From Amphiura filiformis (Eukaryota > Echinodermata > Ophiuroidea > Amphilepidida > Amphiuridae): a stretch of 64,000 nucleotides of DNA. The position numbers and the translations under genes are program-made. The notes beneath the pieces are model-generated. The model did no database searches. It was not told the origin of the DNA and was given only the letters and a program-made list of their open reading frames with translations. This document shows, one piece after another, positions 7,086-57,462 of this stretch (positions within the stretch are counted from its first letter, which is position 1; the number at the start of each line of letters is the position of its first letter). The stretch lies in contig NC_092644.1 of assembly GCF_039555335.1 (NCBI RefSeq), positions 47,470,428 to 47,534,427 on the forward strand. Reading direction: 5' to 3'.

Positions 7086-9832
7086 TAAGCTTAAGAAAAT
7101 TTTTCACCGATCTTCCTCCAATGCTTATCGACAGAGAATGACATTCTCGCTCACAAGCATGGCGTCGAGCACGCAATACCGACACCCGTGATTGGACCCT
7201 ACAAACGCACCAACGAATCACGCCATTGGCCAAAGCTAGTTACCCGGGAAAAACCTGACCTTTGACCCGGCCTGAAACTTTCTTTCTGCAGGTGATAAAT
7301 TGAGTTTCACCGCGATATACGCAATGAAACTGTATTATTATATTGATTGTAATAATTTACAAATACTTCTATTTGAAATGATATTGGTGCTACCTATTGG
7401 GCCACAACTGAATTGAACCATGGGAATGAAAACACAAAAGGCTAACTAGATTTAATTTGAAAAGATATATAAAAAAGTAACAAACAATGAAAGCAATCTC
7501 CCATTTGGGAAGTAAATCGTAATGGAAATGAAAATGAAGATAAAATACACATCAATAAAATCTTTTTATTGCTTAAATGAGATGCCCTTTTTATATTTAT
7601 TTAAGTTCTATGCACACATGTACAATACATTATTGGTGTCGGCAAGAGCGTATTTTGTTTCCTTCACTTTATTTACATTATCATTCCCAAATTAGGACAC
7701 CCTTTTAGTAGTAGTTTCAATCTGTGTTAATTCCCAAACCGAACAAGTGGAATTGTATTTTCTGTGAAGTTAGAAAAGCAAGTGTGAATTGAAAGAGACA
7801 CTTTGATACGCGCTAAATTGCAGAAAATGCTTAAGATATCACACTCCTTTGATCTTCTTTACACTCTGTGTACGACAGGAAATTTACAAACCCACGCTTA
7901 CCATAATTAACTTGGAATATTGAAACTCAAGAAAAGGTTGATTAGAGGAAATAAATTAGCTGATAAACTGATGTTGCTGAAACTATTTCATTGGTTTCTA
8001 CAACAGGTCATTAGTTACCCCTAGTGATGACACAACAAGGACAAAGATACTGTCTTGTAAATTTTATGAACCTCATTAAAAACTCTTTTCAATCATCTTA
8101 TTTTATAAGTTATTTGAGATTTTATGACAGCGAATTCCTCTCAAGTGGTGCTGAACTTATTTTCTCATCATATTTACACTGTTCCCTTTCTTCAGATTCA
8201 GATTCTTGTCATATTGTTCCCTCTCTTACACTGTTCCTTCTCTTATATATGCATTGTTACCTCTCTTGCAAACATAATATTACATGTCGTTCCAATCGTT
8301 TATCGTTCAGAATAAAACACACGACCCCTAAATTGGAATGGCTCAAGCTTGCTGCTATTATTTCACCTCAAGTATATATATTGCTCATTAGAATGACATG
8401 AATCCGTCCGTGCAACTAAAAACCCAAATGGTTATCTATGGGAATATTGACTATCAGATCACTTTCATGTTAGCTGTTAGAGTTTGCCAGCATTACCGGA
8501 GGTTGTGTGAAAAAAGACTAGATATATTGGAATAACAATGAAGAAAAACTGCATAAAACATGCTGAGCTTATGATGTGCATCTGACAAGATTCAATAAGA
8601 AAATCCACATTTTCGGTGGAAACAGAAGTACTTAAAGATATACGCGACCCACTAAAACACACTCTATGGGCCATTTAACCAAAACCGGACATGAAACCGC
8701 GAAATTAAAATTTCCGGCATCTATCTCGTTGCTGATGCACCTTTCAGTCCCAAATGATTTAAGAGTTTAACCGGATCACGTTTGCTCCATTTTAATTACA
8801 TGTGCCAGGATACATTGTTTCATAAAAAAGAATAAAGTACTAATATGCCTATTACTTATCCAGCGTTAGACTACTTTATTGTCACTTTGATCATCAAGTT
8901 ACCCGCGGAAAATAATATGCATCCCAGCTGCGCAGTTCATATCGAAATAAGTAGCCTAGTCCAAATATTGGGTGTGAATCCCAGTTGAAAGGTTTTTTTC
9001 CCTCCAATTTTGTCTTTGATAGCTTTGGAGCTAACATAAGATAAACCCTATAAAAACGTTATATAAGACTAGACTAGTGTGTATTGCTCATAAGGTTACG
9101 AAGCTGTGAAGCAAGGGATACGAATCACACATATAGAGTACTAAGAGTCATTTCCTACCATTAAATAAAGGCAGATGATACCAAGATGCTATTTGCGGAA
9201 ATACAATAGGGAATGTTTGGCAAGGACGTGTATGGAAAGGAAAATGACTCTTACCTATTGTTTATAACAGTCCCGAATTCTACAAACTTGGTGGACAGTT
9301 GCACTTTGGCTAAAAGTTAAAAGGAGAATAATGTTAAAACAAAGTTATTATACATGTTATACGACTCGTATTATATTTAAACTGTAACTATTTCGGCGTT
9401 CAACAGCAATATTATGTCAACAAATAGTCCTGTGTTTAAGTGTAAACCAAATTGGTTTTTCTATTCAATTTTGTCTTTGATAGCTTTGGGCTAACTTAAG
9501 GTAAACCCATAACGTTATACAAGACTAAGCTTGTGTATTAATTGCTCATAAGGTTACCAGGCTGTGAAGCAAGGGATACGAATCACACATAGAGAGCACC
9601 AAGAGTCATTGCCTACCATTAATGATAATAAACACAGATGATACCAAGATGCTATGTCCCGAAATACAATAGGGAAGGTTTGGCAAGGACGTGTATGGAA
9701 AATAAAATGACTCTAGCGTAGTGTTTATAATAGTCCTTACATTTTGAATTCTACAAACTTGGGGAACAGTTGACCTTTGGCTAAAAGGTAAAAGAAGAAT
9801 AATATTAATAAAGTTATATACGACTCGTATTA

Positions 9833-17317: not shown

Positions 17318-19317
17318 TAATCATCTTATTTTATAAGTTATTTCAGATTTTATGACAGCGAATTCCTCTGTTCCCTTTCTTGTCATATTGTTCCCTCTCT
17401 TACATTGTTCCCTTCTCTTATATATGCACTGTTTTCTCTCTTGCAAACATATATTACATGTCGTTCCAATCATTTATCGTTCAGAATAAAACACACGACC
17501 CCTAAATTGGAATGGCTCAAGCTTGCTGCTATTATTTCACTTCAAGTATATATATTGCTCATTAGCATGACAGGAATCCGTCCGTGCAACTAAAAACCCA
17601 AATGATTATCTATGGGAATATTGACTATCAGATCACTTTCATGTTAGCTGTTAGAGTTTGCCAGCATTACCGAAGGTAGTGTGAAAAAAGACTAAATACA
17701 TTGGAATAACAATGAAGAAAAACTGCATAAAACATGCTGTGCTTATGAGGTGCATCTGACAAGATTCAATAAGAAAATCCACATTTTCGGTGGAAACAGA
17801 AGTACTTAAAGATATACGCGACCCACTAAAACACACTCTATTGGCCATTTAACCAAAACCGGACATGAAACCGCAAAATTAAAATTACCGGCATCTATCT
17901 CGTTGACTCTTGCTGATGCACCTTTCAGTCCCAAATGAATTAATGGTTTTTAAATAAGCGAAGTCGAAATAAAAACCAAATTGTCAATGGGGAGAAAATT
18001 TTTTGGCCAGGCGTATAAATGGGTTTTTTACCCTTGTGTATAATATGGGTTAGGCCGTTCACCCACTTGGAGTTATGCACATCAGTGATTTCAGATATGC
18101 GTTCACCCATGTTAAAACAGGTGCATGGACAATGCAAGCATAATGGTTTTGTTAAAGGTCTTTGTTGTTGCTATGATACAACCAATCACTTGGCATAATG
18201 TAGCTGGTCAAATGCAAATGGGCTTTTGACTCACATCATGTTTTATCATCGAGAGATCAACGTCTACTGAAAAAGGTTAAAGCATCTATGGTTAAATAGC
18301 TGCATGTCAATATAAAACAGTGACATGTTAATGCTTGCATTCGCTCTATGGCAATGTATAGCAATCTACCAACAGGATAAACAAAATGGCAACAGTAAAA
18401 CAATCAGGGTGTGATTGTAACATAGATTGTGATTGTGCAGGACGGTGCGTCATCATGGTGGAATCTTTGTCTTTCGGCGGTATGGAAGGGACAATGTACT
18501 TGAGTAGGCAAGTTATGATTAATCTGTTAATTATACGATGAAATAATAATGATAATAATAATTAACAGAAATAGCACTAACGAGGATCAATATGAAGGAC
18601 AGCGATTAATTAATTTAATACATGTAGCGAAAAGATTGCGCAACTATACGTTAAATGTAAATGTAAGCCTACATGCATAGGCCTACACATATAACATCTA
18701 TAAGCCCCGCTATAAGCAGTGCCAAGAAATGAGTGTGTAAGGCATAAGATAAGGTGTGGTTTAAAAACATTAAATAGTGCCAGCGTGGGCATTTCAGTGA
18801 TCGAATAATTATGAACAATGCAGTTAAATAGATTAAGTTCAAACATGCTAAATACACATGAGCACAGTCATGGTAAGGTAAGGCGGAGGGCAAGTAGTAT
18901 GACCTATGGTACCTTTCGAAGTACTGTGGGATCCAAATTATTATACAAATGCACGTACGTAAAACCAAAATCCCACAAGTTCGAATTAATAGCTATTAAT
19001 GACGCTTCAGTTTGACATGGTTTCTTCAAAAAATCATAGGCCTAAACATGAATATTACAGGATCTAATAGTAGTAGGCTAGTAATTATGGTAGGCAATAA
19101 GTACAAGGATAACCAGCGGGGAACAATATTAATTAAGCAACAAATGGTAGGGTCAAGGAGGTGACACTAAATTCATGGTTCTATTACTAATGAAAAACAG
19201 AATAAGGAGAAAGAAAAACTATTGTTTATCAAGAGAGATAGACCAGCTCTATATAATGGCAGAGTCTGGATCTTATCAAGTAAATGAAGGGAAAACAATC
19301 TGGCAAATAGGGACGGT

Positions 19318-28478: not shown

Positions 28479-31400
28479 AATTAATTGCTTAAAGTTGATC
28501 AGGCCACCAATGAAGGGAATGAAGTCATAAACGAGGTTACTTGTGAAAGTGATAGAAGACACTTTAGGGTATCGCAGGCTTTTCAGGGTATCTTCACACA
28601 TTTAATTCCTGTTTGTGTTGTTTATGTGTCAAATATGCGTTATCATGGTTATAAAAGATAAGGTCCAACCTGCCTATGTCTATGACACGCTTGATCCGAT
28701 CATAATCATTCTGGCGAATGAATTGGGTTGTAATTGGGGGTTCAGGAAGCAACGATTCATTTCATTGGTCAGTAATTAACAGCTCATCGCCAGTTTCTGA
28801 ATTATGAAGTCAGTTTGAGGAAAAGTACCTCAACATTAAGCAATAATAAATATATGAATGTAACTTTGCCCTACATTTCAAAGGTATGTAATGAATGTAA
28901 TTTACAAGAGACGGAATAATAGATCTTACGATCAGTCTGGCTATGTATTCAGAATACTAGAGCACAACCCCTTGTTCTCCAATAAATATAGTTGAAAGAA
29001 TGATAAAAGGGAATAAACATGGATAAGGCGGGATTTTACTATCGTCATTTCCTGCAGAGTAAATAGTTATGTAAAACTATATTATCACTTAGTCCCCTAC
29101 TGTATGCACACACGCACCCATCAATTCTCCCAAAGGCCACATAAGACTGTTAATATAAATAATTTAGTTCCGTCCCAGAACTTGGTAAGAGAAGAGCAGA
29201 GAGTAACAAGCCAGGGTAACAATACATAGATTTTGTTTTTTTGTTTTGAATTGAAAGTAATCCCAACGGTATCTGTCGCGAATGTAGTACTTTGTTCTAT
29301 TTATACATATATAAATTTATCAAAAGCATTAAGATATTTAAAAGCAACTCGACATTATACATTTACAATAGCGATATCCGTCTATTTGTGTGGGAACAAA
29401 GCTATGCCTTTACTACTACACGTTTTTTTAAAATTTTTAAGTTTGATAATTTGTTCACATTTTATCATAAGCACAATTATTGCACGACTTGTGCGAAAAG
29501 ATAAATACATAGATATCTGTATTTTATCATGTTGATCACCGTTGGAAAAGCTTCGTTTTGCCAATTAAAATGTTGCGGATGGGAGCAATTATATTCCCCT
29601 ATCTCAGAATGATGAAAAAATAGCTTCTCTTGATGGTTTCTTATTCTTATTTTAGATTGAACGAAGACAGCTGACAGCTACAGTAAAATTAGCCTCATTT
29701 GTGAATAAAATTTAGTTGGAACAACAAATGTGTTTGCGAATATCATTGAGAGAGTGCTGTATGAGAATGACGCATTTGGGACAATTGAACCACTCTGCAT
29801 GCGACCAATGGTTTCCACAACAATGCTGACTTTTGTTGATACTTTAATTTGAATGAACATTAATATCGTGTTTGACAATATTACACTTATCCACATTTCA
29901 TCGGGCCTTAAGGAATTGACGTTATTGTTGCCTGCATCCACATCGTATTATTATATTGATTGTAATAATTTACAAATACTTCTATTTGAAATGATATTGG
30001 TGCTACCTGTTGGGCCACAACTGAATTGAACCATGGGAATGAAAACACAAAAGGCTAACTCGATTTAATTTAAAAAGATATATAACAAAGTAACAAACAA
30101 TGAAAGAAATCTCCCATTTGGGAAGTAAATCGTAATGGAAATGAAAATGAAGATAAAATACACATCAATAAAAATCTTTTTATTGGTTAAATGATATGCC
30201 CTTATTATATTTATTTAAGTTCTATGTACACATGTACAATACATTCTTGGTGTCGGCAAGAGCGTATTTTGTTTCCTTCACTTTATTTACATTATCATTC
30301 CCAAATTAGGACACCCTTTTAGTAGTAGTTTCAATCGGTGTTAATTCCCAAACCGAATGTATTTTCTGTGAAGTTAGAAAGGCAAGTGTGAATTGACAGA
30401 GACACTTTGATACGCGCTAAATTGCAGAAAATGCTTAAGATATCACACTCCTTTGATCTTCTTTACACTCTGTGTACGACAGGAAATTTACACACCCACG
30501 CTTACCATAATTAACTTGGAATATTGAAAATCAAGAAAATGGTGATTAGAAGAAATAAATTTGCTGATAAACTGATGTTGCTGAAATTATTTCATTGGTT
30601 TCTACAACAGGTCATTAGTTATCCCTTGTGATGACGCAACAAGGACAAAGTTGCTGTCTTGAAAATTTCATGGAACTCATTAAAAACTCGTTTTAATCAT
30701 CTTATTTTATAAGTTATTTGAGATTTTATGACAGCGAATTCCTCTCAAATGGTGCTGAACTTATTTTGTCATCATATTTACACTGTTCCCTTTCTTGTCA
30801 TATTGTTCCCTCTCTTACATTGTTTCCTTCTCTTATATATGCACTGTTACCTCTCTTGCAAACATATATTACATGTCGTTCCAATCATTTATCGTTCAGA
30901 ATAAAACACACGACCCCTAAATTGGAATGGCACAAGCTTGCTGCTATTATTTCACTTCACAAGTATATATATTGCTCATTAGAATGACAGGAATCCGTCC
31001 GTGCAACTAAAAACCCAAATGGTTATCTATGGGAATATTTACTATCAGATCACTTTCATGTTAGCTGTTAGAGTTTGCCAGCATTACCGGAGGTAGTGTG
31101 AAAAAAGACTAGATACATTGGAATAACAATGAAGAAAAAATACATAAAACATGCTGAGCTTATGATGTGCATCTGACAAGATTCAATAAGAAAATCCACA
31201 TTTTCGGTGGAAACATAAGTACTTAAAGATATACGCGACCCACTAAAACACACTCTATGGGCCATTTAACCAAAACCGGACATGAAACCGGCATCTATCT
31301 CGTTGCTGATGCACCTTTCAGTCCCAAATGAATTAAGAGTTTAACCGGATCACGTTTGCTCCATTTTAATTACATGTGCCAGGATACATTGTTTCATAAA

Positions 31401-41284: not shown

Positions 41285-42610
41285 CTTTTCGGAGTAACAC
41301 CCCTTCGACGAGAAAACGCCCGTCCTGCTCAGTCAATTCGGAGTAACACCCCTTCGAGATAACGCCCGTTCTTCTCAATTCGGAGTAATACCCATTCGAG
41401 ATAACGCCCGTTCTTCTCAATTCGGAGTAACACCGCTTCGAGATAAAGCCCGTTCTTCTCAATTCGGAGTAACACCCATTCGAGATAAAGCCCGTACTTC
41501 TCAATTCGGAGTAACACCACTTTGAGATAACGCCCGTTCTTCTTAATTCGGAGTAACACCCCTTCGAGATAACGCCGTTCTTCTCAATTCGGAGTAACAC
41601 CACTTTGAGATAACGCCCGTACTTCTCAATTCGGAGTAACACCCTTCGAGATAACACCAAATACTTCTCAATTCGGAGTAACACCACTTCGAGATAACGC
41701 CCGTTCTTCTCAATTCGGAGTAACACCGCTTCGAGATAAAGCCCGTTCTTCTCAATTCGGAGTAACACCCATTCGAGATAAAGCCCGTACTTCTCAATTC
41801 GGAGTAACACCACTTTGAGATAACGCCCGTTCTTCTCAATTCGGAGTAACACCCCTTCGAGATAACGCCCGTTCTTCTCAATTCGGAGTAACACCACTTT
41901 AAGATAACGCCCGTACTTCTCAATTCGGAGTAACACCCCTTCGAGATAACGCCCGTTCTTCTCAATTCGGAGTAACACCACTTTGAGATAACGCCCGTTC
42001 TTCTCAATTCGGAGTAACACCCTTCTAGATAACGCCCGTTCTTCTCAATTCGGAGTAACACCACTTTGAGATAACGCCCGTTCTTCTCAATTCGGAGTAA
42101 CGCCCATTCGAGATAACGCCTGTCCTTCTCATTTTGGAGTAACATCCCTTCGAGATAACGCTAATACTTCTCAATTCGGAGTAACACCACTTCGAGATAA
42201 CGCCCGTACTTCTCAATTCGGAGTAACACCCATTCGAGATAACGCCTGTCCTTCTCATTTTGGAGTAACATCCCTTCGAGATAACGCTAATACTTCTCAA
42301 TTCGGAGTAACACCACTTCGAGATAACGCCCGTACTTCTCAATTCGGAGTAACACCCATTCGAGATAAAGCCCGTACCTCTCAATTCGGAGTAACACCCC
42401 TTCGAGATAACGCCCGTTGTTCTCAATTCGGAGTAACACCACTTCGAGATAACGCCCGTACTTCTCAATTCGGTGTAAAACGCCCGTCCTTCTCAATTCG
42501 GTGTAACATCCCTTCGAGATAACGCTCGTCCTTCTCAATTTCTAGTGTAACACCACTTCGAGATAACGCCCGTCCTTCGATGTAACATAACGCCCGTACT
42601 TCTCATTTCG
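41285..42610. repeat. 42-bp minisatellite, about 30 units
   Basis: The unit is ttctcaattcggagtaacac followed by mccttcgagataacgcccgt and two more bases; the period is 42 (ggagtaa at 41341 and 41383). Variants (cccttcgag, cacttcgag, cactttgag, cattcgag; ttctt/tactt) alternate in blocks, pointing to higher-order duplications; for example, 41383-41640 resembles 41715-41900. Because 42 is divisible by three and the unit lacks stops in some frames, long minus-strand ORFs arise with a 14-residue period. Occasional single-base deletions switch frame, which argues against coding. The last units at 42470-42610 are degraded. Confidence 0.95.
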
Positions 42611-44825: not shown

Positions 44826-45802
44826 GCTATGGTGGCAACTATACACCAGTTTTGACCCTACAAGTTCCACATCAATCCAGTCTGCCCTCTCCACACTTAC
44901 TTTTGTGAAATACGATCTTGGATGACGGGCAATATGCTAAAACTGAACAATGAGAAAACAGAACTTTTTGTTGCCATTTCTCCTCATAATAAAGTTTATA
45001 TGCCTCCAGTCACAATTCAAGTTGGTCCTGATATTATTCAACCTTCTGAATCCGTTCGCAATCTTGGCATCATTTTTGACACACATATGTCCATGTCAAA
45101 TCATATATCATCTCTCTGTGCTAGTGTGACTTATCATCTAAGAAACATCTCACGTATCCGCCGTTATCTGGACTTTAATACATGCAATCATGCCGTCCGA
45201 TCATTAGTGCTTTCAAGATTAGACTACGGAAACGCCCTTCTCATGGGAACAAATGTCACAGACATTGCCAGACTTCAACGCCTTCAGAATTGGTCAGCTA
45301 AGTTGATATTCTGTGCTAACAAGTATGATCACGCAACTCCTTTCCTGAACGAACTTCACTGGTTGCCGGTTAAGGAACGTATCACATTTAAGATCCTCCT
45401 TTACGTGTTCAAATGCATCAATGGAATTGCACCGGCATATCTTTCATCTTGCCTAGCCTTATACTGCCCAGTCCGGAGAGGGTTACGCTCATCTTCTGAT
45501 ATAACTCGCTTGGTTGAACATAGAATCCAGAATAGGACACTGAAATCTGCCGTCATTGTGGAATAAGTTACCCATTGCCATTCGCACTGCCAACTCACTT
45601 CCATCATTCAAGAAGGCTTTAAAATCACATTTGTATCATTAATCATGTTATTATGATCTCATGCATTTTGCTATCTTTATTGTATATATTTTGTTTCACA
45701 TTTGCATTATTGTATTTTTCATTGTTGCTTGTTGCGCCGTGGTCTATATGAAATGGCGCATTATAAATGCCTAATGTATGTATATGTATATGTATGTATG
45801 GC
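44826..45802 (+). mobile_element. CR1/L2-like LINE, 5'-truncated 3' end
   Basis: The LINE protein C-terminus is followed by a 3' UTR with gaaatggcgcattataaatg and a tail of atgtat/gtatat short repeats (about 45773-45802), characteristic of the CR1/L2 group. Upstream, 44869-44925 reads SSTSIQSALSTLTFVKYDLG in another frame, so the insertion starts near 44826 with a frameshift before the main ORF. Confidence 0.8.
44922..45642 (+). pseudogene. LINE reverse transcriptase C-terminal half
   Basis: 214 open residues to 45566, beginning NMLKLNNEKTELFVAISPHN, with SVRNLGIIFDTHMSMSNHIS, YHLRNISRIRRYLDFNTCNH, SLVLSRLDYGNALLMG, HATPFLNELHWLPVKERITF and KILLYVFKCINGIAPAYLSS. This is the thumb and C-terminal region of CR1/L2-like LINE RT; the catalytic palm is missing upstream. 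Near 45555 a frameshift moves the expected end into another frame, where WNKLPIAIRTANSLPSFKKA followed by LKSHLYH and a stop (45642) completes the family-typical C-terminus. Better preserved than the other retroelement pieces, but with at least two frameshifts it cannot be active. Confidence 0.85.
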
Positions 45803-51070: not shown

Positions 51071-52139
51071 CCCCTCCCCAAAAAAATACGCGCATGCGAA
51101 ATGTCTTGGGGAAATTTGGATATCTAAAACCTAACATTTGGTCTCTCTAAAATCTAAATTAGAAACGAAGCAAAATTCAAGACAGTTTAAAACTCAAGTA
51201 CATTACGAATATGGCCGTTTGCAATTACACGTAAGACAGACATACATTTGTAGCTCCATAAAACCAAGAATTAAAGTTAGTCTAAACTTTCGTAGCTGGG
51301 ACAAATCTCAACTTTCATTTTGATTGAAATTAGGAAATTCACATCTTTGTTAATTAATGTGATGCTGTGTGGTTTAATTTTGAAGAAGTGTAAACATGCA
51401 AGTGATAAAACTAATACGAATATTAATTTAGTCAACGTCGGCGGTCGCTGTCCGTAGACAGCCCTACTCCAAACTCTAGTGTCATTGGGTATGACTTTTT
51501 TTTAAAGTGGGTCATCGGGTATATTCGACAAAGGGGCATATTGACAGGCCCATACCGTCAGTTCTAAAGTTGAGTGCCCCCGGACATTAATTATACGTTA
51601 TGGGATAAAACGAAATATGGTAGATATTGGTGTAGGTTAACCTCAATAATAGTGGTAGCAAGTTAGTTTCTTTTATATGCAAGCAAACGTGAAAGGCATA
51701 CCTTGAGAGAAATCAAAAGCCACCGAGATTAATAAAGAGTACTTTATCAATCTAATAAAAAACAAACAAACAAAAAACAAACAAACTATTGATCCCTCAA
51801 TTTGCATTTATTTATTTTTAAAAAAGTATTGAAATTTGTTCAGTTCGGCTTCATATTTATAGATGACACACGCAGCAACCACTCAAATTAGTGAAATACC
51901 TTTAGCTAGGCAATTCCACATCGCGTCTGTTTGAATTTACAACTTTTCAAATCGCACCGAGTCAATTCCATTAATCATTTCTTGATTATTCCCATTTCTT
52001 TTTACGCACGTGCGGTATCATACTTAAACTTATGACAACTAAAACAAGTGCGGACATTAATTTTGTGAGGTATTTATCATGTTTATTAAACGGTTGGTTT
52101 CTGTATTAATCATAAGCAGAGTATTAGAAAGATAACTAG
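51071..52139. other. No gene recognised
   Basis: AT-rich, with an aaacaaacaaac run at 51757-51785. No conserved frame. Confidence 0.4.
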
Positions 52140-53095
52140 TGGCAAATGGTGGTCATAGACCACAAACCTAGCTGGGGCATGTTGGTGTTGTGGAGGTATC
52201 TGACCCCTACAAAATGTTCCAAAAATGCTCCCCTGGTCAAGAGGTTTGTTTTCACCAAGTTTGAGTCCCGTACTCCTAACAGATGTCCAAAAAATTCAAT
52301 TCTAAGATTTGACCCCAGATGACCTTTGACCTGACCTATGCATGATGTTCCATAATGTTCCCCTGGTCTTGAGGTTTGTTGTCACCATGTTTAAGTCCCA
52401 TACCTCTTACAGATATCCAGAAAATGAAATTCTACGATTTGACCCCAGATGACCCTTGACATGACCCTTGCACAGTGTTCCAAAATGTTCCCCAGGTCAG
52501 TAAGTTTGTTGTTGTGGAGTTTGAGCCCCGTACCCCTAACAGATGTCCAGAAAATGCATTTAGAAAATTTGACCTCTACATGACCTTTGACCTGACCCCT
52601 GCAAAATGTTCCCCTGGTCATGAGATTTGTTGTCACTGAGTTTTAGCCCCATACCCCTTGCAGATATCCAGAAAATGAAGTTATAAAGATTTTACCCCAG
52701 ATAACCTTTGACCTGACCCCTGCAAAGTGTTCCAACATGTTCCCCTGATCATTAAGTTTGTTGTCACCAAGTTTGAGCCCCGTACCCCTTACAGATGTCC
52801 AGGAAATGCGTTTCTAAAATTTGACCTCTGCATGACCTTTGACCTGACCCCCGCAAAATGTTCCCTTGGTCATGAGATTTATTGTATTGAGTTTGAGCCC
52901 CATACCCCTTACAGATGTCCAGATAATGCAATTGTAAGATTTTACCCCTTAATGACCTTTGACCCCAATTCTGTGTGCAAGGTATGGGCACTGGTAAAGC
53001 CGATGCACATGTGTAAGTGACGACATTGTGCTATGTAATATGTGGCAGAAGAAGCATTTTGAAGATATTTGGTTATATACCGAAAATGCCCTTTA
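52140..53095. repeat. Repeat array, first subfamily (about 120-130 bp units)
   Basis: About six units share gttccccnggtcatgaggtttgtt-type and ccccttacagatgtccagaaaatg-type stretches (mismatches between units), each ending in tgacctttgacctgacc or a near form. Exact TGACCTTTGACC occurs at about 52320, 52581, 52833 and 52953. The left border carries a near-palindrome gtggtcatagaccac (52149) and cctagctgggg (52168); related motifs recur at 53251 and in the hairpin at 55153. Confidence 0.85.
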
Positions 53096-55085
53096 ATGAC
53101 ATTTGATCCCAATTCTGTTTGCACCCTATGGGCACTGGATATAGCCGATACATGTGTGCAAGTTACGTAATTGTAGGGTGTAATATGTAGGAGGAGAAGC
53201 ATTTTGAAGTTTTGTTGCCAGAAGAAGAAAGAAAGAACTAGACTTAGCTGTGGTCTAAGACCACGAACACAGCCGTGTTTTGACGCCTTAATGACCTTTG
53301 ACCTCAAAATATATAAAACGCCCATAGACATTGGCTAATGTCAATGTATGGGTGCAAGTGGCACCACTTTGCTATGTTATTTGTGGCAGAAAGGGGCATT
53401 TTGAAGGTTTTTCGTCTCAGACCGGAAGTGACCCCTTAATGACCTTTGACCCCAAATGAAAAAATACCACATGTACAATAGGTAAACACAATTTACGTGT
53501 GAATATACCATCACCCTCCAATGTTTTTCTTAGCAAATAAAAAATTTTGAAGGTTTTTCGTTTTATACCGGAAGTGACCCCTTAATGACCTTTGATTCCA
53601 AATTTGTGAGGACCCCATAGACACTGGGTAATAACAATGCATGTGTGCAAGTGGCGTCACTTTCATACGTAATTTGTGGAAGAAGAAGCATTTTAAAGGA
53701 ATTTCGTTTTATACCGGAAGTAGCCCCTTAATGACCTTTGACCCTAAATGAAAAAATACCACAAATGCACAGAGTAACTACAATTTATTTGTGAACATAC
53801 CGTTACTGTCCTATGTTTTTCTTAGCAAATAAAAATTTTTGAAGGTTTTTCGTTTTATACCGGAAGTGACCCCTTAATGACCTTTGACCCCAAATCTGTG
53901 AGGACCCCATAGACACTGGCTAATAACAATGCATGTGTGCAAGTGGTGTCACTCTCCTACGTAATCTGTGAGAGAAGAAGCATTTTGAGTTGAAATCACG
54001 TTTTTGACCCCTATGACCCCTGTTTGACCTTTGACCCCACGAGTTTCATATGACATGTAGGGGCATGGTCAATGATCATTAATGACCAAGTTAGGCCAAA
54101 ATCGGTGCAAGCATGTAAGTGCTAGAGCAAATGTAGTGGTCGGCAGAAGAAAGAAGAAGAAGAACTAGACTTAGCTGTGGTCTAACCCACGAACACAGCC
54201 GTGGTGTGACCCCTAATAACCTTTGACCCCAAAATATATGAAAACGCCCATAGACATTGGCTAATGTCAATGCATGGGTGCATGTGGCACCACTTTGCTA
54301 TGTTATTTGTGGCAGAAGGGGCATTTTGAAGGTTTTTCATCTCAGACCGGAAGTGACCGCTTAATGACCTTTAACCCCAAATAAAAAAATACCACATATG
54401 AATTGGGTAACCACAATTCATGTGTGAACATACCGTTAATGTCCTATGTTTTTCTTAGCAAATAAAAAATTTTGAAGGTTTTTCGTTTTATACAGGAAGT
54501 GACCCCTTAATGACCTTTGACCCAAAATATGTGAGGACCCCATAGACACTGGGTAATAACAATGCATGTGTGCAAGTGCTGTCACTCTCCTACGTAATTT
54601 GTGGAAGAAGAAACATTTTAAAGGTATTTTGTTTTATACCGGAAGTGGCCCCTTAATGACCTTTGACCCTAAATAAAAAAATACCACATATACACAGGGT
54701 AACTACAATTTATGTGTTAACATACCGTTACTGTCCTATGTTTTTCTTAGCAAATAAAAAATTTTGAAGGTTTTTCGTTTTATACCGGAAGTGACCCCTT
54801 AATGACCTTTGACGCCAAATCTGTGAGGACCACATAGACACTGGGTAATAGCAATGCATGTGTGCAAGTGGTGTCACTGTCCTACGTAATCTGTGAGAGA
54901 AGAAGCATTTTGAGTTGAAATCACGTTTTTGACCCCTATGACCCCTGCGTGACCTTTGACCCCACGAGTTTCATATGACATGTAGGGGCATGGTCAATGA
55001 TGGTTGTGACCAAGTTAGGTCAAAATCGGTGTAAGCATGTAAGTGCTAGAGCAAATGTAGTGGTCGGCAGAAGAAGAAAGAAAGA
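53096..55085. repeat. Repeat array, second subfamily (146-bp units in a 926-bp duplication)
   Basis: Units of about 146 bp contain accggaagtgaccccttaat followed by gacctttgacccc. Two unit types alternate: one continues aaatgaaaaaataccaca, the other ctgtgaggaccccatagaca. A higher-order tandem duplication of about 926 bp puts cta-gacttagctgtggtcta at 53239 and 54165. TGACC starts fall at 53292, 53440, 53586, 53732, 53878, 54025 and, in the second copy, 54217, 54365, 54511, 54657, 54803, 54950. No coding sequence. Confidence 0.9.
53420..54965. promoter_or_regulatory. Phased ETS-type and DR1 nuclear-receptor-type motifs
   Basis: Most units carry ACCGGAAGTG, an ETS-family consensus, about 15-20 bases before TGACCTTTGACC, the complement of GGTCAAAGGTCA, a DR1 element of the kind bound by RXR heterodimers, HNF4 and COUP-TF. 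The motifs are plainly present. Binding or enhancer activity is inference: they may simply be part of the repeat sequence. Confidence 0.3.
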
Positions 55086-55101
55086 ACCTGTAAGAAAAAA
55101 G

Positions 55102-55187
55102 ACACAGCCGTGACTAACGTCACGGCTGTGTAAGAATCGGAGAGCATTACAGTACCTAGCTGGGGGTGTAAACCCCCCAGCTAGGTA
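55102..55187. other. Two perfect hairpins at the array's right end
   Basis: First: a 13-bp stem ACACAGCCGTGAC with its complement (55102-55114, 55119-55131), loop TAAC. Second: a 14-bp stem TACCTAGCTGGGGG with its complement (55153-55166, 55174-55187), loop of seven. The first stem reuses the acacagccgtg of the repeat units (53268, 54194), and the second reuses the cctagctgggg of the left border. They look like terminal structures of the element that carried the array. Confidence 0.7.
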
Positions 55188-55238
55188 AATAGAATAGGAA
55201 TTTGGGTTGGTGTTGAAATGAAATGACTAGAGCTAAAG

Positions 55239-56580
55239 TAATCATGCTTATAGCCCACGCAAACATAATACTGTGTTGGGCTTAAAAGTTAATGTGATTT
55301 TCACACACATTCATTCCCTTATACAAAAAAAAAAAAAAATGTCTACAAAATATGTTCTATTTACCACATAGGCTATATTTAATACTACACCATCTTTTTG
55401 TTTGAATCGCTTCAGCAAAAACGTGAAACTTATGTTATTCCTGTTCTTTCTTATTTTTGTATTTTGCTCCACATTCGACTTTGTCATTGACTTCCATATT
55501 GCTTCTGACTTCCCTTTTCTTTGATATCTGACTTTCATCTGTCTTTCATTGATCTTTCTGTCGCCCTTGCTTCTAAATATAGTTCCAAAAGCATCAAATC
55601 ACACCAAAGGAACATTATTGACACAATAAAACGGGTGAACATTTGTCATGTTCATTTGCAGTGGTAACTCATATGTGCTCGATCGAATCACGTGACTCAC
55701 GTGAATCAATTTCTCGTCCATCTTTAAGGGTTTATATTTATGGAAAGACACCATCAAAATAGAGCAGGTGAATCGTAATATATGATGAAGCTATAGTAAA
55801 TGATAAAATAATACATTATAGAAGAAATTGTGACAATTATTTAATTTATCTGGATGTCATATTTCAGCAAAGGTGTCCCTCTTCTATTTTGCATCATGAC
55901 GTAACGCATAGCAGGTGCCAGATACCTATTCTATGTTTCAGTTTCTACAAGGCACATTAGATGTTTGAGCAACATCAATAAATCATCTATAGTCCGTCTA
56001 GCAACATTACAACCACGTTTCAAATTGCTAGAAATGCAGCATAAATTCACGTTCTGATGCGCGATAACTGGAGCGTTACAAATGGATTTTATGATAACGA
56101 TTTGATTGGGCAACCATACGTAATTACATCTATCAGTCTATACGAGGTGCTATGGTCAAAGATAGGTAAAATAGTTAGTTCTTTAATTATCGTAAGTACA
56201 TAAGAAAAAAGGCAGATTGTAGGCTCAATAAAGAAATGCAAATAGGCGACCATCTTGTAAACCTAACCACAACTCCAACCAATACCGTAATCCTAAATTT
56301 AACCCTTAACTACATGGTAACCCTAACCCGTAAGTGCCACTTAAACTTGACAGCAGTGGATAAATAGAAAAGAAAACTATTTTAAGCCGTGAGATGTTTT
56401 TAAACCGGCAGCTTTAATGCATTAAGGGAATAAGGTTTGATGATTCGCTATTGTAAATAGATAATGATAAACGATAATGAAAACGTTACTTTTGACGGCG
56501 CAATGATTATCACTTTGAGCGTTGCGATTGGAATGAAATATAGTACAGGCATGGCAAGTTACTAGACTTGGAGGCAGTAG
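55239..56580. repeat. Block R2 of the thrice-repeated region
   Basis: Counterpart of R1. It is colinear to about 56180, then more diverged through 56340-56580 (gagcgttgcgattggaatga). It contains the second copy of the conserved island at 55918-56060. No maintained ORF apart from the island's minus-strand frame. Confidence 0.75.
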
Positions 56581-56940: not shown

Positions 56941-57166
56941 TGAACGCGAAGGAGCATTGTAATGAAACTTAATATTTTTCAACCATTTGTTTCATGACTG
57001 TATTTAACGTTGATCAAGAATAGGTTTAGTCACTTTTACTCATTTAATATTTTTTACTCTCAATAGCACCGAGATGATGTCAAAAGGACCATAGCCAAGA
57101 GAAATATTATGGTGCTTCACTGCAACGAGTTTTTTCTTACTTTTCTTTTCTTACTTTTCATTTTCT

Positions 57167-57462
57167 CCTCTCCTCTTCTCTTCTCTTCTCTTCTCTTCTC
57201 TTCTCTTCTCTTCTCTTCTCTTCTCTTCTCTTCTCTTCTTCTCTTCTCTTCTCTTCTCTTCTCTTCTCTTCTCTTCTCTTCTCTTCTCTTCTCTTCTCTT
57301 CTCTTCTCTTCTCTTCTCTTCTCTTCTCTTCTCTTCTCTTCTCATCTCTTCTCTTCTCTTCTCATCTCTTCTCTTCTCTTCTCTTCTCTTCTCTCTCTTC
57401 TCTTCTCTTCTCTTCTCTTCTCTTCTCTCTTCTCTTCTCTTCTCTTCTCTTCTCTTCTCTTC
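57167..57462. repeat. (TTCTC)n microsatellite
   Basis: About 290 bases of ttctc units with a few interruptions (57239, 57343, 57363, 57392, 57427). The LLFSS-repeat ORF on one strand and the Arg/Glu-repeat ORF on the other are products of the period. Confidence 0.98.

Follow-up and report, generated by a model that had tools for sequence, protein, structure and literature searches.

The window analysed here (the whole 64-kb stretch of DNA) carries on its minus strand a HINE-like element, X, whose outer ends were placed at 52145..55190, with approximate limits, from its subTIRs, 5′ hairpin and 3′ palindrome. A sequence-only reading had drawn attention to an array at 53096..55085; its coordinates hold, although the feature as a whole extends further (~52145-55190). 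The 5′ end of X is at the high coordinate, and a 12-bp subTIR is common to both ends. At the 5′ end, the subTIR and its complementary arm make a perfect hairpin with 14-bp arms and a 7-nt loop (55153..55187, minus strand). At the 3′ end, an exact 12-bp copy stands in inverted order (52166..52177, minus strand), and exact matches to this subTIR occur only there and in the two arms of the X hairpin. The palindrome GTGGTCATAGACCAC lies 2 bp outside the 3′ subTIR (52149..52163, minus strand).

A second HINE-like element, Y, recognized by its own end structures and including a duplicated block, is nested in X (53250..55131, minus strand). It starts 21 bp after the X 5′ hairpin with another perfect hairpin, of 13-bp arms and a 4-nt loop, made of its 5′ subTIR and complementary arm (55102..55131, minus strand). 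The 11-bp 3′ subTIR of the first block is at 53267..53277 (minus strand) and a further exact copy at 54193-54203; the only exact copies are those at 53267 and 54193 and the arms at 55102 and 55121. A palindrome pattern search found the Y 3′ palindrome, GTGGTCTAAGACCAC, at 53250..53264 (minus strand), and a decayed form of it was read by eye at 54177-54190. The pattern, GTGGTCNNNGACCAC, occurs only twice, at 52149 and 53250, each time beside the far subTIR copies (0.06 occurrences expected). A TTC/TTTC microsatellite, read in the sequence, adjoins the Y 5′ hairpin (55066..55087, minus strand), and similar runs are found near 54141-54165 and 53218-53237.

The order along the minus strand is subTIR, loop, complementary arm, TTC-type microsatellite, tandem repeats, inverted subTIR, and palindrome. 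X owns the outer ends and an array of 130-bp repeats; Y owns the duplicated blocks of 146-bp repeats. The X and Y subTIRs differ from each other, and each is identical in all its own copies, i.e., they have changed in step. TT precedes both 5′ ends, and a T-run follows the X palindrome. Both elements have the features by which HINEs are recognized: a subTIR of at least 11 bp, a complementary arm 1 to 12 nt apart, a 3′ palindrome, and a microsatellite with repeats. In 30 shuffled windows, no hairpin had an arm with a copy up to 6 kb away, and the arms of the three other hairpins of the window with arms of at least 10 bp are without copies. The element ends rest on internal structure because the window holds no other copy; neither an empty site nor an autonomous partner was seen. 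In the search for a target-site duplication, only the subTIR exceeds 8 bp among the 15 matches listed around X. A 10-bp direct repeat, GTTGGTGTTG, lies just inside one X end (52181-52190) and ~20 bp outside the other (55206-55215), which may be chance.

Canonical Helitrons have a 3′ hairpin with CTRR close behind. This canonical signature is lacking here, as we saw no CTRR by eye on the plus strand in the 18 bases after either hairpin. Rfam gave no family at gathering score in the window, the one match in 52000-55400 (E 1.9) being far below its gathering score, and Pfam gave no match up to an E value of 0.01 in 10 of the 31 listed open reading frames, two of them inside the element. A tRNA origin of the element ends was considered and rejected, the sole tRNA found in the window being located elsewhere. 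Judged from these structures, X and Y are very probably HINEs, i.e., non-autonomous Helentrons, or their close kin. The motif array therein looks like the central tandem repeat of an apparent mobile element and not like a demonstrated enhancer. The two 5′ hairpins are neighbors at one end, with three 3′-type ends after them, an arrangement that copying past a 3′ terminator could have produced.

Outside the elements, the window contains a ~42-bp minisatellite (41288-42578; 28 copies, 88% matches, with end variants of 28, 44, and 70 bp) and a TCTTC pentamer run (57164-57462; 60 copies). It also has an open frame (44856-45563) that we take to resemble the tail of a LINE reverse transcriptase; a Pfam search of this frame was without match.

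Tandem arrays and the 12-bp box

The ~130-bp central tandem repeats lie at 52212..52964 (minus strand) and the ~146-bp ones, 14 units delimited by repeat analysis, at 52945..55085 (minus strand). Both share a 12-bp box. Its plus-strand form, TGACCTTTGACC, has 12 exact copies within 52140-55190, one further exact copy in the rest of the window (at 7256), and none in 500 dinucleotide shuffles of the 3-kb stretch 52140-55190. On the element strand the box reads GGTCAAAGGTCA, as in the copy at 53440..53451 (minus strand). The motif search placed its further copies, all on the minus strand, at 53292, 53586, 53732, 53878, 54025, 54217, 54365, 54511, 54657, 54803, 54950, 52953, and 53097, and, in the 130-bp array, at 52320, 52450, 52581, 52702, and 52833. 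The box is present in each of the six units of the latter array, inexactly in two of them. Among the paper titles listed in a literature search, none concerns the TGACCTTTGACC motif in tandem repeats.

The intervals of 146, 146, 146, and 147 bp described in the sequence-only reading are present in two runs (box starts 53440-53586-53732-53878-54025 and 54365-54511-54657-54803-54950). These runs are not independent since they are one ~925-bp block duplicated at 92.4% identity. The 14 units are 144, 195, 148, 146, 146, 146, 147, 192, 148, 146, 146, 146, 147, and 192 bp long (the end of the last was set by hand), a range of 144-195 bp, and in the adjoining array the box steps by 130, 131, 121, 131, and 120 bp. 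Since an array with the same box steps by 120-131 bp, 146 bp is no general phase.

The box sits inside a 23-25-bp core common to unlike unit bodies. This core is a run of TGACC half-sites, of which 52140-55190 has 53 on the plus strand versus 8 on the minus strand. Within the core, the DR1 half-sites of the box are exact and always one base apart, and the distances of the neighboring half-sites vary. Outside the shared core, the bodies of the 130-bp and 146-bp families appear barely alike or unlike, with z below 3 in 67 of 70 comparisons and a maximum of 4.0. The C-type unit beside the microsatellite (54025..54158, minus strand; second copy at 54950-55082) also stands apart in its body, which has z below 2 against six of the seven other units of its run and z 24.6 against the one whose tail it shares. 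The only switch between unit families that could be located sharply (52942-52964) falls inside the core.

The ETS-like site

The ETS-like site ACCGGAAGTG, e.g., at 53421..53430 (plus strand), was found by motif search in 8 of the 14 units of the 146-bp array, in six exactly and in two with one mismatch; the other starts are 53567, 53713, 53859, 54346, 54492, 54638, and 54784 (plus strand). It had been described as preceding the box by 15-20 bases in most units, and in these eight it always starts 19 bp before the box start. A two-mismatch form at 53079 precedes the box in one more unit. The 130-bp array has no match at up to two mismatches, and the sequence evidence does not support a pairing with ETS sites as a general feature of the box. 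When all 14 units are compared, the ETS columns fall below the average (0.578, rank 99 of 138), and within the eight units that carry the site they are unexceptional (rank 10 of 138, P 0.54 with permuted columns). Elsewhere in the window, ETS-like near-matches at 8495-8693, 17782-17867, and 31086-31284 share mutual spacings of 113 and 76 bp, which suggests a dispersed repeat family with no relation to the array.

Conservation of the box before and after the block duplication

Across all 14 units, the box is the most conserved window, with a mean pairwise identity of 0.919 versus 0.627 for the rest and a permuted-column P of 0.0005 as best window; units were cut at the box, which favours its conservation, and no array unit was dropped. 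The state before the block duplication can be approached by comparing only columns where both block copies agree. In this comparison of six units the box is invariant (1.0 versus 0.657, P 0.00025). On the motif and how well it is conserved, the earlier reading is right in part. The proposed check, per-column conservation against the unit background, gives a split answer. It is positive across the 14 units, but the box does not stand out among the eight ETS-bearing units (rank 20 of 136, P 0.67) or in the 130-bp family (rank 2 of 120, P 0.61; rank 7 of 120, P 0.94, without its last, hybrid unit). Within pre-duplication units u3-u6 P is 0.53, the values being 1.0 and 0.985, of which the lower one has missing columns filled with the mean.

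Since the duplication, the two block copies have come to differ at 5 of 72 box positions, a small sample, versus 56 of 850 outside. The values are 12 of 149 versus 49 of 773 for the 25-bp core and 2 of 40 versus 59 of 882 for the ETS-like site, and they give no sign of constraint on this copy, nor does the sequence evidence support a regulatory function for it. Constant before the duplication, the box has had no visible protection since then, with few positions to judge by. It seems to have been kept while the rest of the repeats diverged, this copy now decaying like its surroundings.

Related arrays in other contigs

Genome and viral contigs were scanned for pairs of motifs spaced by 118-148 bp, which yielded 13 loci in the former and 3 in the latter. 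Two of them, L003 and L004, have box-bearing units of ~147-150 bp with other bodies. They are filed under one bacterial bin and are apparently eukaryotic, probably animal, putative contaminants; all 11 exact motifs of that genome record are on these two contigs. They are 87% alike over the query and are counted as one witness because they may be two copies of one locus. Over their 10 units, the box is again the best-conserved window (0.983 versus 0.803, rank 1 of 136). Between them it has changed at 1 of 78 aligned positions versus 76 of 1,205 (one-sided p 0.043), which hints at constraint there. The ETS-like site is not above chance in L004.

Two L004 units, one of them beside the microsatellite of that locus and thus in the same place as the C-type unit, resemble the latter in three of four pairings, with z values of 10.3, 7.1, and 3.5; the remaining pairing was not below p 0.05. 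At the 5′ end of L003/L004 there are a GTCC-like run and a hairpin whose folding (z -2.2) was equalled by 1 of 200 shuffles. We looked for a 3′ subTIR at these loci and found none.

The remaining candidates were discarded on their inspected surroundings (L001, L002, L005, L006, L008, L009, L010, L013, L015, and L016), on motif spacing (L007, L011, L012, and L014), or as single motifs without repeats, taken as chance matches (L017 and L018). Several bacterial contigs, including L001, L006, and L010, carry arrays of TTTGACC-type heptamers, and others have ~22-bp units with the same 12-mer. Exact cores had no match in the viral or genome contigs, and BLAST found none in phages for the window stretch and none in plasmids for L004. 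Among published primers of the sea cucumber Holothuria leucospilota, 2 of the 82 entries in the portion of the source available contain the exact motif, and one of these two is identical to window positions 52312-52331 (20 of 20 bases); none of the other primers among the six compared matched exactly (PMC7161275). This gives a lead, though short of proof, towards an echinoderm origin of the window. An Apostichopus primer with an 11-mer belongs to a gene-based marker and was given no weight.

DISCUSSION

We lean towards regarding the array as the central repeats of two nested HINE-type elements on the minus strand, in what is probably an animal genome. The box would have been maintained while the element was mobile and would no longer be so in this copy. 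It would most likely have served the element, as a joint for recombination or template switching, at which unlike units were exchanged and amplified, or as a site used by the replication proteins of the element; in that case, its likeness to a nuclear-receptor site would be accidental or a by-product. That the box was kept as such a joint or element-protein site has, in our estimate, close to an even chance. The family switch inside the core (52942-52964) is as expected if unlike units exchange at a common sequence, although the joint is thinly supported, just one type switch having been located sharply.

Alternatively, the box could be a nuclear-receptor site (GGGTCAAAGGTCA, a DR1 on the element strand) serving element expression or opening, assisted by ETS in one subfamily. 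The exact half-sites with their fixed one-base spacer among variable neighboring distances and the conservation of the box across unlike bodies agree with this, as do precedents in Alu and B1 repeats in the parts of these studies available (PMC1785376 and PMC10709309). Yet the box has had no visible protection since the duplication, and the putative helper is limited to 8 of the 14 units and is at chance level in L004. The same 12-mer also arises in bacterial repeats, and the presence of the string in bacterial heptamer arrays means that it can arise without receptors; altogether, we find a receptor site rather unlikely. These heptamer and 22-bp arrays argue instead that the box is the relic of a short simple repeat, made of TTTGACC heptamers or TGACC units, out of which the present repeats grew, and that chance, conversion, or mutational bias preserved it; the strand bias of the half-sites (53 versus 8) argues likewise. 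However, both in the window and in L003/L004 the invariant part is the box and not the neighboring half-sites, and we hold such a relic to be improbable too. That the box was kept for a reason other than a joint or element protein, receptor binding, or a simple-repeat relic is less probable still.

Whether the array belongs to a mobile element at all must also be considered. An ordinary local satellite with coincidental end structures would be consistent with a window without other copies and, among the matches listed, without any target-site duplication of more than 8 bp other than the subTIR. HINEs, though, make no target-site duplication according to the part of the oyster study consulted (PMC7492417), and coincidence would have to account for two nested end sets in HINE order, with different co-changed subTIRs, when 0 of 30 shuffles had a comparable hairpin and copied arm, making such a satellite very unlikely. 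As for the nucleosome-phased regulatory array suggested by the runs of 146-147-bp units, the same box recurs at 120-131, 144-148, and 192-195 bp, and phasing at nucleosome length is scarcely credible.

We read X and Y as nested HINE-like elements, of an element type already known, whose central repeats contain a conserved box. An array that looks regulatory and has a period close to nucleosome length can turn out to be part of the anatomy of a transposon, and a simple comparison of old conservation with recent decay separates the two types of array. One could speculate further that, in several marine animals, the central repeats of Helentrons have long kept TGACCTTTGACC as a box because a host nuclear receptor, or the element's Rep or RPA, binds it while the element is active; from the sequences at hand this is a doubtful extension. 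If true, DR1 sites would have been scattered ~147 bp apart through invertebrate genomes, and a box common to Helentrons of several phyla would give an entry to the building of central repeats and to the spread of receptor sites.

Comparison with known systems

Among the closest known systems is Cg_HINE of the Pacific oyster. In the available part of its description, oyster HINEs consist of subTIR, complementary arm, microsatellite, short central array, second subTIR, and palindrome; most of their monomers measure 140-180 bp and include 146-bp and 138-bp classes, and unlike monomers of one group share two motifs (PMC7492417). X and Y have the same end order, repeat size, and fixed repeat orientation, whereas the sequences are others and the complementary arms are longer (13-14 bp versus 7-12 bp in the oyster). 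Unlike Cg_HINE as described there, X and Y are two nested elements with a duplicated block. The 5′ hairpin and GTCC-like run of L003/L004 are also as in these oyster elements (PMC7492417).

DINE-1 of flies and mite HINEs, to the extent covered by the accessible text of PMC4067079, have the same order of parts and resemble X and Y in having subTIRs (12-15 bp there), a 3′ stem loop, a microsatellite, and central repeats. They have a TT preference, and here TT precedes both 5′ ends. They differ in the matter of an autonomous partner, of which none was seen for X and Y, the ends of the latter having been set from internal structure. The tandem products in the portion of PMC8268682 considered lack 3′ ends, whereas X/Y has three 3′-type ends instead. 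In nematode satellites, as far as PMC3694981 was available, conserved motifs at monomer junctions despite low identity were proposed to be a rearrangement joint; these are classical satellites of another host with a CENP-B box-like motif, unlike the box here. Finally, the DR2 sites of Alu and the NR5A2 sites of B1 show in the parts of the reports consulted how mobile repeats can spread receptor sites (PMC1785376 and PMC10709309), with a binding that was measured in those systems and would be putative in ours.
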